Assembly: GCA_005798405.1 (NCBI GenBank) | Contig: SYJQ01000022.1 | Span: 1-41,016 of the forward strand | DNA: 41,016 bases | From: Nitrosopumilaceae archaeon | GTDB taxonomy: Archaea; Thermoproteota; Nitrososphaeria; Nitrososphaerales; Nitrosopumilaceae | Reading direction: 5' to 3' | Shown: in pieces, positions 33,162 through 38,440 of the stretch | How the letters are laid out: each line of letters opens with the position of its first letter | Numbering within the stretch: position 1 is the stretch's first letter | Notes under the pieces: generated by a model | What the model was told of the DNA's origin: nothing | Seen by the model: the letters and a program-made list of their open reading frames with translations, nothing else | The model's database searches: none | Position numbers and translations under genes: made by a program

Positions 33162-33404
33162 ATGATATTGGTCAGACTTTCTACTGAGGTGAAAAATGTG
33201 ACTGAATGCCCTACATGTAAACTAGCAATGGAGTCACACTCTACTGCAGAATTAATGGAGTGTTGTATGAAACAAGTGGGAGATGATTTTACTGAAGAAG
33301 ATAACGGAGTGTGTCCTAACTGCAAGCATGCCATCAAAAAACATTCGGACAAAGGACTTGCAGAATGTACATTGGCATTTTTTAAATCACATATCAAAAA
33401 CTAG
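33162..33404 (+). CDS. Tandem-repeat Cys/His protein
   Basis: CPTCKLAMESHSTAELMECCMK and CPNCKHAIKKHSDKGLAECTLA repeats; start may be the internal GTG (MKNVTECPTCK). Confidence 0.8.
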   Translation: MILVRLSTEVKNVTECPTCKLAMESHSTAELMECCMKQVGDDFTEEDNGVCPNCKHAIKKHSDKGLAECTLAFFKSHIKN

Positions 33405-33489: not shown

Positions 33490-34086
33490 TTGGATCAATT
33501 AACCAGAATACTCGTTGAAAAATACTCCCCCATGTGGACAAACAAGCAAGTTTGGGAATACGAGCAAATTCATGAAGAAATAAAATTTGATGTATTGTAT
33601 GTGAAACCAGGAAATAAAGAAGAAATATCATGGAAATCAAAACGGGCGTACCAAGATAACAAGATTAGAGAAATTATAATTGGCACTTTTGAATATCTTA
33701 TAGACGGTTATGAGTTATGGATAAAGAATTCCAAAGGCAATCAAAGTGAACTTGGCAAATTTATTCCATATCTTATGGCAGTAATAGTGGATACAATGAT
33801 TGACGAAGAGATTTGTCTAAAATTTAGAGAAGAAAATAATTGTCTGATAGTATCAATTGATTCTCAGGCAGATATAATAGATTGTAAAGAATTCTTTGCG
33901 GAGTTTTATCATCTTGCCACGGGTTTCAATTATAATGTAAATACAGGAATTCCAGACGACGAAACAGAAGCAGAAATCTATCTAACAAGATTACAAGAAG
34001 AGTTTGATGAAAACATGAAGGCAAAATTAGGAGAAAAGTATCTCCCAGGAAACAAAGATCCAGATTCAATTAATATCGATCAATGA
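33490..34086 (+). CDS. Hypothetical protein (198 aa)
   Basis: Long ORF with consistent composition; no recognised family. Confidence 0.8.
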   Translation: MDQLTRILVEKYSPMWTNKQVWEYEQIHEEIKFDVLYVKPGNKEEISWKSKRAYQDNKIREIIIGTFEYLIDGYELWIKNSKGNQSELGKFIPYLMAVIVDTMIDEEICLKFREENNCLIVSIDSQADIIDCKEFFAEFYHLATGFNYNVNTGIPDDETEAEIYLTRLQEEFDENMKAKLGEKYLPGNKDPDSINIDQ

Positions 34087-34228: not shown

Positions 34229-34279
34229 ATGGCAGCAAAGAAAAAAGCAGCAGCAAAAAAAGCTTCAAAAAAGAAATAA
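34229..34279 (+). CDS. Lysine/alanine-rich microprotein (16 aa), histone-tail-like
   Basis: MAAKKKAAAKKASKKK; TATA-like ttattttatatc at ~34181-34192; T-rich stretch downstream. Confidence 0.5.
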   Translation: MAAKKKAAAKKASKKK

Positions 34280-34416: not shown

Positions 34417-34539
34417 ATGGAACATACTAAAGAGTGTGAATATAGAAATTCTCACGACATGATTCATGCCAACTGCTTTTGTAAATGTCACAAAATTATC
34501 ATGATGGATTCAAGAAAAATGGACTCAAAATCATTCTGA
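34417..34539 (+). CDS. CxCxCH microprotein (40 aa)
   Basis: MEHTKECEYRNSHDMIHANCFCKCHKIIMMDSRKMDSKSF; absent from the ORF track. Confidence 0.65.
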   Translation: MEHTKECEYRNSHDMIHANCFCKCHKIIMMDSRKMDSKSF

Positions 34540-34715
34540 GTACACACGTTGGCTAAAAACTACAATTAAGTTAGAGTCTAAACTCTTTATTGATCAAAAG
34601 TCTCATACTATTTGCTAATTGGCTAGATTGGGAAATAATCAATACCCACAACCTCTTTCAGATTAGAGCAGTGAAGCTCGTCATTCAGGTCTGACACATA
34701 GGTCTTTGATACCAA

Positions 34716-34844
34716 TTAGATTTTCAAATGACAGCTGCATTGGCAACTATCAATAATACATCGGTGTTTTTTACAATCAAGACATCGCTTGCTTCTACCT
34801 GTTTTCATTCTAAGTTCTTCAATTCTTCTTGCCTTTTCACTCAT
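34716..34844 (-). CDS. CxCxCH microprotein (42 aa)
   Basis: MSEKARRIEELRMKTGRSKRCLDCKKHRCIIDSCQCSCHLKI; absent from the ORF track. Confidence 0.75.
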   Translation of the reverse strand: MSEKARRIEELRMKTGRSKRCLDCKKHRCIIDSCQCSCHLKI

Positions 34845-34928
34845 GAAAATTAATACATGATACATTCAAAAAGCCTTTAGGTTTTATTGTTCCAAGTCCT
34901 AAAATAGCAGCAAGTAATAAAAAAAATA

Positions 34929-35279
34929 TTGCCGGAAAACAAAAGACCATTCAGAAGATTTGAAAATAGATCATCAAGACCAAAAACGCAGACGACCGAA
35001 GATAAAATCAGGGATTTTATTATACGTAATTCAAAAAATGGTTACTATACTAAAGTTTCAACACTTTCTTACAAATTTGAAATACCTGAAGACAAAGCAT
35101 GGGAAATTGTAGGTATGCTTTTGACAGATGGAACCTTAGAATCAATACATGATGAGTTCACAGGAGAGATGAAGCTCTGTGAAACAGGAAAAACATATCT
35201 GATCATGAATTTAGAACAACAAAGAAAAAGACAAAAATCACAAGAGTTTAAGAGAAACAGAAAACAAAAATCAAAATAA
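34929..35279 (+). CDS. Small winged-helix-like nucleic-acid-binding protein (TTG start)
   Basis: Basic termini flanking KIRDFIIRNSKNGYYTKVSTLSYKFEIPEDKAWEIVGMLLTDGTLE. Confidence 0.75.
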   Translation: MPENKRPFRRFENRSSRPKTQTTEDKIRDFIIRNSKNGYYTKVSTLSYKFEIPEDKAWEIVGMLLTDGTLESIHDEFTGEMKLCETGKTYLIMNLEQQRKRQKSQEFKRNRKQKSK

Positions 35280-35285
35280 GAAGAT

Positions 35286-35387
35286 ATGATTTTTTGGAAC
35301 AAAAAAGTATGTTCAGATTGCAAAAGAATGAAGTGTCAAAAGGGCTGCATATGTGATTGCCATCAGCTAAGAGATAGAATAGATTAA
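35286..35387 (+). CDS. CxCxCH microprotein (33 aa)
   Basis: MIFWNKKVCSDCKRMKCQKGCICDCHQLRDRID; absent from the ORF track. Confidence 0.75.
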   Translation: MIFWNKKVCSDCKRMKCQKGCICDCHQLRDRID

Positions 35388-35422: not shown

Positions 35423-35503
35423 GTGGAAAACGATGAGAATCTTCCTGTACAGTGTCATCCAATAATTAAACCAAAAAAGAAAGTAAAAGTAGGCAGTGAA
35501 TAA
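35423..35503 (+). CDS. Possible microprotein (26 aa, GTG start)
   Basis: MENDENLPVQCHPIIKPKKKVKVGSE; overlaps the start of the next gene. Confidence 0.4.
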   Translation: MENDENLPVQCHPIIKPKKKVKVGSE

Positions 35504-35837
35504 CATGGTTGAACTAACCAATCAAGACAAAATCGAGATCAGTAGAATCCTGGCATCGATTGAAGGAAGATTAGATAAAAGATTAATCAAATTAACCATG
35601 GATTTGATTCTAAAAACAAACTGGACTAAGAGTGTTGCAATGGATTTGTATAAAAATAATCGTGATAACATTCCAGATAAATCATTAAATGCATTCGTAT
35701 TAGGAAGTCATTTTGGACAAATATATCAAATATCCTTAGATTTTTCCAAAAAGTTAGAATTGTCTCTATCCCCTAACCAGAAAAATATTCTAAGGGAGTT
35801 TGTATTTTTCCTAGTTTTACTCCGTGCAGAAAAGTAA
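35496..35837 (+). CDS. Hypothetical protein (113 aa)
   Basis: ORF with helical composition. Confidence 0.8.
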   Translation: MNNMVELTNQDKIEISRILASIEGRLDKRLIKLTMDLILKTNWTKSVAMDLYKNNRDNIPDKSLNAFVLGSHFGQIYQISLDFSKKLELSLSPNQKNILREFVFFLVLLRAEK

Positions 35838-35887: not shown

Positions 35888-36034
35888 GTGATTCAATGCA
35901 AAATATGTGGAACACCTTTAGGAAAAGAACCTACAACACAACAACTAGAAGAACATTGGAAGAAACATCATAGTTGGCATTGGCAAGTCAATCAAGATAA
36001 AACACCTGAAGATGCACTGCTAAAGAAAAGATAG
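35888..36034 (+). CDS. Zinc-finger-like microprotein (48 aa, GTG start)
   Basis: MIQCKICGTPLGKEPTTQQLEEHWKKHHSWHWQVNQDKTPEDALLKKR; CX2CX15HX3H. Confidence 0.7.
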   Translation: MIQCKICGTPLGKEPTTQQLEEHWKKHHSWHWQVNQDKTPEDALLKKR

Positions 36035-38089: not shown

Positions 38090-38440
38090 ATGGTTGAATT
38101 AAAACTGCAAGGTTCAGGAGGTTATATTGTAGCTGACCTAACTGAAGAACAAGCAAAAAAAGCAGATTTAGGAGTAGGAAAATTATTTTTAGCACCAGTA
38201 GGCAAAATTGAAGAACAAAAAATGTCAAAACATTATTGTAAAAATTGTGAATCTGAATTTGACAACCCACCTAAAATAAGACTAGAAGAAAACACCAATG
38301 AGCAAGTTGCAGATAATTTAATTCTTGTAGAAAGAGGCCAGTATACATGCCAGCAGTGTAGTCACATTATTGGAGAATACAGAGTATTCAAAAAACAGGA
38401 CGAATCAAGTGATATAGGCAATGCAAGACCTAGTCAATAA
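38090..38440 (+). CDS. Hypothetical protein with CxxC pairs
   Basis: YCKNCESEFDNPP...YTCQQCSHIIGEYRVF. Confidence 0.8.
   Translation: MVELKLQGSGGYIVADLTEEQAKKADLGVGKLFLAPVGKIEEQKMSKHYCKNCESEFDNPPKIRLEENTNEQVADNLILVERGQYTCQQCSHIIGEYRVFKKQDESSDIGNARPSQ

Follow-up and report, generated by a model that had tools for sequence, protein, structure and literature searches.

Conserved CxCxCH microproteins of Nitrosopumilaceae are candidate one-domain, metal-nucleated adaptor proteins

The window analysed here is a whole stretch of 41,016 nucleotides of DNA from the genome (G000) of an ammonia oxidiser of Nitrosarchaeum/Nitrosopumilus type within the Nitrosopumilaceae, in which archaeal amoA is present. 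Three short ORFs with a CxCxCH motif, to which a sequence-only reading had drawn attention, were found exactly at the coordinates given there. Microprotein A (34417-34539, + strand; 40 aa), with HTKECEYRNSHDMIHANCFCKCHK inside its chain, represents the family HTKECxYRxxHDxxHxNCxCxCH and has its CxCxCH motif at 34474-34491 (+). Microprotein B (34716-34844, - strand; 42 aa) contains GRSKRCLDCKKHRCIIDSCQCSCHLKI, follows the family pattern GRSKxCxDCxxHxCxxxSCxCxCH and carries the motif at 34728-34745 (-); its start was placed at 34844, since in most orthologues no ATG lies farther upstream. Microprotein C (35286-35387, + strand; 33 aa) contains CSDCKRMKCQKGCICDCHQLRDRID, belongs to the family WNKKxCSDCKRxKCxKGCxCDCH and has its motif at 35346-35363 (+); the closest named records for its gene are those of Nitrosopumilus and Nitrosarchaeum.

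The three ORFs are embedded among larger genes. A conserved neighbour of 198 aa without a family (33490-34086, +) lies upstream of A, and an ORF of 113 aa, likewise without a family (35496-35837, +), lies downstream of C. An ORF of 116 aa (34929-35279, +), a candidate operon partner that matches no Pfam family, immediately precedes C and is oriented divergently from B. C begins 6 nt after it, and of 17 other loci examined, 15 also have the 116-aa ORF close to B. Within the host genus, the block formed by the 198-aa gene, A, B and the 116-aa gene is largely constant, while C is not. The region of the cluster is also rich in possible zinc microproteins of differing types: it is flanked by a protein some 68 aa long that has CPTCK...CPNCK (33198-33404, +) and by a C2H2-like ORF of 48 aa with CKICG...HWKKHH (35888-36034, +), and a further, zinc-ribbon-like ORF of 116 aa with CKNC...CQQC lies nearby (38090-38440, +). 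In addition, a short Lys/Ala-rich ORF, MAAKKKAAAKKASKKK, is located upstream of A (34229-34279, +), and spurious CxCxCH matches in the relatives L011 and L012 (SFFCCWFFCCCFCH) lie antisense to a stretch resembling this ORF.

A, B and C are short and, as stated in the sequence-only reading, unannotated, so that they might be chance ORFs, or conserved regulatory DNA or RNA instead of proteins. That reading had itself named loss of the frames in relatives and a dN/dS near 1 as outcomes that would count against it; what we found is that the frames are kept across Nitrosopumilaceae and that pN/pS lies far below 1. Intact frames were recovered from relatives' genomes for B (37 of 201), C (43 of 121) and A (29 of 121), and both A and B were found in 16 out of 17 further genomes of the host genus, the exception being G012, which is 61 % complete. 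In most Nitrosopumilus-type (g12) genomes A is present as a single copy. Purifying selection is evident from pN/pS values of about 0.10-0.15 (full-span pairwise means of 0.15 for 14 sequences of B and 0.10 for 13 sequences of A), and the variable columns pile up at third codon positions (binomial p 0.004 for B and 1.5e-5 for A). For C, pN/pS was about 0.07 in a motif-selected sequence set, a value that is biased low because the motif by which the sequences were chosen fixes many residues. Selection on the amino acids with free third positions, frames intact in dozens of genomes and apparent operons with gaps of 1-9 nt make a chance or regulatory origin extremely improbable. Judged by sequence comparison, A, B and C are real and strongly conserved genes of Nitrosopumilaceae.

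C is nevertheless dispensable: eight sister species do not have it at the window-type locus, and another has a degenerate copy there. Three of the sister species without C at this locus carry it elsewhere, and in five sister species C and the downstream 113-aa gene are both missing at the locus. The degenerate copy, in genome G008 (L009 972-1052), is still open but decayed, several of the seven ligand positions having been lost.

The motif itself is far more frequent than expected. As a DNA pattern, CxCxCH has 4 sites in the 41-kb window, where shuffling predicts 0.06 and none of 100 shuffles gave as many as 4; three of these sites are those of A, B and C, inside 0.9 kb. Across 18 Nitrosopumilaceae genomes we counted a mean of 16.6 sites per genome compared with 3.3 for a reversed-pattern control, whereas 103 genomes from other families of the phylum had a mean of 3.0 compared with 3.3 for the control (Mann-Whitney p 2e-11 for the difference between the two groups). 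Raw counts give too high a number of genes: of the 16 sites found in the host genome, roughly half belong to antisense or very short frames that have no ligands upstream of the motif. A stricter pattern, CxxC-x(4-14)-CxCxCH, was therefore used as well. It gave 70 matches (2 in the control) in the 18 Nitrosopumilaceae and 26 (30 in the control) in the 103 other genomes. The motif is a non-chance, lineage-specific expansion in Nitrosopumilaceae.

Inspection of the matching sites revealed at least four more microprotein families with CxCxCH, namely D (MNKKSMNKCEEPSCICKCHEADYRRRRIRG), E (MICAACESRKHYECIDCVKNHETHLCQCDCHDENTKPHPVDKPH), F (MAEGKGCNTCNSEHDGNFYRFCKCSCHDRIAREIVG) and G (MKKDPTELCSCKCHYGGAVSCPSCKNNHGIVCCHCKD, which has CPSCK), together with C paralogues ending in CNCDCHWEP. 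E is the most widely spread, being found in 82 of 181 genomes, nearly always as a single copy and with every match inside Nitrosopumilaceae. Paralogues may also be clustered: three C-like ORFs lie inside 2.7 kb in G096 (L245), and C-like and B ORFs are arranged in tandem in G014 and G112 (L017, L019). The shared ancestry of B and C that the sequence-only reading had proposed was borne out when their profiles were compared (hhalign probability 95.8 %, E 8e-9), and E scored 88.8 % against C and 81 % against B, although short Cys-rich profiles may score through composition in such comparisons. C and E share the fixed frame CxDC-x8-CxC(D)CH and B has CxDC-x9-CxCxCH; E retains CxDC-x8-CxCDCH with its third Cys replaced by His one position earlier. 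Since the frame is fixed, some sequences (in G096 and G111) are matched by the B as well as the C profile, and tandem copies exist, common ancestry of B, C and E is likely. For A, profile comparison did not establish shared ancestry with B and C (a weak 52 % against B and 17 % against C), and the sequences have little in common beyond CxCxCH; A may be related to B and C or may be convergent.

The conservation of individual residues is informative about what such proteins might do. Across 55 sequences of C, residues C9, D11, C12, R14, C17, C21, C23, D24, C25 and H26 are invariant and W4 and G20 nearly so, and the invariant residues of B include G16, R17, S18, K19, D23, all six Cys and H39. The Cys/His pairs are C9xxC12 and C23xxH26 in C (overall spacing CX2CX4CX3CX1CX1CH), C21xxC24 and C36xxH39 in B, and H3xxxC7 and C22xxH25 in A, which has HxxxC where B, C and E have CxxC. 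One ligand position alternates, being Cys in C and B and His in E, and Cys/His interchange is usual at zinc sites. The earlier proposal of a metal-binding type of microprotein family is supported. Invariant non-ligand residues beside the ligands are as expected for a folded interaction module, and in combination with the Cys/His alternation they suggest a zinc-type site within such a module rather than a metal store, which favours an adaptor function.

The sequence-only reading had named a tiny zinc or Fe-S adaptor as its last alternative and had preferred metallothionein-like proteins that might answer the high copper demand of ammonia oxidisers. Cu(I) buffers or chaperones of this kind would be consistent with the clustering of CxCxC motifs, with as many as six Cys in 33-42 residues and with the presence of amoA in the host, and clustered CxC motifs, being typical of thiolate-cluster proteins too, count against a zinc adaptor. 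However, the Cys content is low (10 % in A, with four Cys, 14 % in B and 18 % in C), and this, the conserved Asp, Arg, Gly and Trp residues and the Cys/His interchange at a ligand position make the metallothionein comparison a poor fit; no metallothionein family of Pfam was matched. The distribution weakens the copper reading as well. In 200-300 genomes drawn across the phylum, the A, B and C profiles gave good matches only in family f1, with a few matches outside it at E 0.003-0.005. Archaeal amoA is also present in six ammonia-oxidiser genomes that belong to two further families, f2 and f8, yet a profile search of these six yielded no match to family C, and no CxxC..CxCxCH ORF resembling A-C was recognisable in f2 and f8, where the few pattern matches look compositional. 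Finally, no copper genes were recognised among the neighbours inspected. A role as Cu(I) buffers or chaperones is thus rather unlikely, and the proposed tie to copper demand was not upheld.

Searches of wider collections returned no relatives. A, B and C had no Pfam match up to E 1 and D-G none, and searches of NCBIfam and PDB were empty or insignificant. Nor did we find a description of a CxCxCH family in literature searches on thaumarchaeal metallothioneins, archaeal CxCxC motifs and Nitrosopumilus small proteins, which covered subscription journals only to a small extent. Viral origin or carriage was considered and rejected, as scans of IMG/VR with the A, B and C profiles found no relative and PHROGs gave nothing significant.

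The neighbourhoods of C and its relatives outside the window provide a further line of evidence. At the Nitrosopumilus-type loci, C begins 0-1 nt after the stop of a gene for a 72-73-aa membrane peptide (about 29 loci), and in nearly all of these the membrane-peptide gene begins 4-9 nt after a CBS-domain gene. At L127 (4296-5093) and about 28 similar loci, the CBS-domain gene, the gene of a 73-aa membrane peptide and C form a tight operon that is often divergent from a universal stress protein (USP) gene. Pfam assigned the CBS and Usp neighbours at E-values of 5.6e-30 and 5.6e-28, respectively. Of 77 C loci, 35 have a USP gene within 1.5 kb of C, and in three loci that partly share the gene order of the window the USP gene directly precedes C. 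Because the loci are syntenic, these CBS and USP neighbours amount to two or three independent associations. The gene of family E, of which most Nitrosopumilaceae have a single copy, is located between a 219-aa gene of no known family and an SNF2-type helicase gene (L219, L226; G015; G000 contig 16). Family D adjoins two genes, one with an Lrp/AsnC domain and one whose RMMBL match is weak and below threshold. The helicase beside E and the Lrp/AsnC gene beside D are in keeping with regulatory or nucleic-acid settings.

Stress-type USP and CBS genes beside C in many genomes, and the six invariant Cys of both C and B, could also be accommodated by Fe-S cluster or redox-active thiol microproteins acting as electron carrier, cluster scaffold or stress thiol switch. 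But A contains no more than four Cys, Cys and His alternate at one ligand position, and ferredoxin and rubredoxin models were not matched in Pfam, NCBIfam or PDB; we regard this alternative as distinctly unlikely. Another option, a narrower form of the adaptor reading, is that the proteins are nucleic-acid-binding mini-fingers that serve directly as transcription factors, Brz-like or analogous to Zn2Cys6 proteins. The stretches between the ligands in CxxCKRMKC and in CxxCKKHRC have a strongly basic character, the N-terminal segment of B is also basic, and B and the 116-aa gene are divergently oriented. The CX2CX4C spacing nevertheless differs from the CX2CX6C of Zn2Cys6, for which a Pfam match is absent, and this narrower version seems unlikely as well.

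We therefore favour, as somewhat the more probable explanation, that A, B and C are one-domain, finger-like adaptor microproteins nucleated by a metal. Through their Cys and His residues, the short chains would wrap around a single transition-metal ion or possibly two, with Zn(II) as the likeliest metal. The ligand set would comprise CxxC, a third Cys and CxCxCH in C, the same with one additional residue in B, and His/Cys versions of it in A. Between the ligands (CxDCK/R-R..GC.CDCH), conserved residues of basic and acidic character would offer a surface for a partner protein or a nucleic acid, so that the microproteins could act as small regulatory adaptors of their companion genes. For C, the presumed companions are the CBS-domain and membrane-peptide unit and the universal stress proteins, which may point to a link with stress or energy sensing. 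AlphaFold2 models of C and B had low confidence (pLDDT 60.5 and 69.0, respectively), and AlphaFold2 is unable to separate metal-binding from metal-free fingers (PMC11241148). Zinc cannot be assumed, because only part of the Haloferax fingers contain it: among 14 predicted zinc fingers, 9 bind zinc and 5 are zinc-free, three of these having another metal (PMC11241148). More speculatively, and with appreciably less confidence than in the adaptor function as such, A-F might constitute a Nitrosopumilaceae superfamily with several paralogues in each genome and a new CxCxCH ligand architecture, made up of trans-acting regulatory or sensor modules, in which C would be the third subunit of a CBS/membrane-peptide stress sensor.

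Much of global nitrification is driven by marine and freshwater ammonia-oxidising archaea, whose regulatory proteins are poorly known. A-C deserve attention as conserved and apparently undescribed genes that lend themselves to direct testing: as multi-member families with a fixed Cys/His signature, they provide small targets that can be synthesized and examined directly for their metal and partner. They illustrate that small-ORF annotation in Nitrosopumilaceae can miss strongly selected genes, and their distribution gives no basis for a copper role of Cys-rich proteins in ammonia oxidisers. Judging from their sequences, A-C are more reminiscent of one-domain zinc-finger proteins, in a new archaeal variety, than of copper stores.

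How do these microproteins compare with known systems? Metallothioneins (animal, plant, and the cyanobacterial SmtA and bacterial BmtA) are short proteins with CxC motifs, some of them with His, and their hallmark is a very high Cys content with little else conserved and no aromatic residues. A-C resemble them in length and in the CxC motifs; they differ in a lower Cys content (10-18 %), fixed spacing, conserved non-ligand residues including a Trp (W4, D11, R14, G20 and D24 are invariant or nearly so in C) and the lack of a Pfam match. Fungal Zn2Cys6 domains of the Gal4 type, CX2CX6CX5-12CX2CX6-8C, likewise combine six Cys within a short chain with basic residues that follow the first CxxC, but the spacing of C (CX2CX4CX3CX1CX1CH) is another one, and A-C have an extra His and a CxCxC end, are prokaryotic and gave no Pfam match to this domain. 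Ferredoxins and rubredoxins likewise had no significant match in Pfam, NCBIfam or PDB. Some archaeal CBS-domain proteins are fused to a zinc-ribbon-like domain, and the C unit would similarly pair a CBS module with a small module of putative metal-binding type; unlike in the fusions, this module is a microprotein of its own, whose gene follows that of a membrane peptide.

The closest kind is the CPxCG class of archaeal zinc-finger proteins, which includes Brz and the Haloferax volcanii C(P)XCG proteins HVO_2753 and HVO_0758 (PMC2253796, PMC6562870, PMC10716476, PMC11241148). CPxCG-related small zinc-finger proteins have been defined as having fewer than 100 residues and two Cys/His pairs, with two or three residues between partners and the pairs 7-40 apart (PMC2253796). 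A, B and C agree with this definition in size (40, 42 and 33 aa) and in their paired Cys/His residues, whereas their CLDCK, CSDCK and HTKEC sequences depart from the CPxCG-like pattern, which only the separate family G (CPSCK) shows. Both groups are archaeal, shorter than 70 aa and one-domain with two correctly separated Cys/His pairs, have many paralogues per genome, are often missed in annotation and include members that adjoin other genes, in the CPxCG class genes that they regulate. In contrast to that class, A-C have no CPxCG, CPxCx or CxxCG but the signature CxDC..CxCxCH (HxxxC..CxCxCH in A), have no relatives in the family libraries searched and were found here only in Nitrosopumilaceae. 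Haloarchaeal one-domain zinc-finger micro-proteins gave phenotypes in 12 of 16 deletion mutants (PMC6562870), and Brz of Halobacterium salinarum controls the neighbouring bop gene (PMC2253796). A, B and C may work like proteins of the CPxCG class without belonging to the set as defined.
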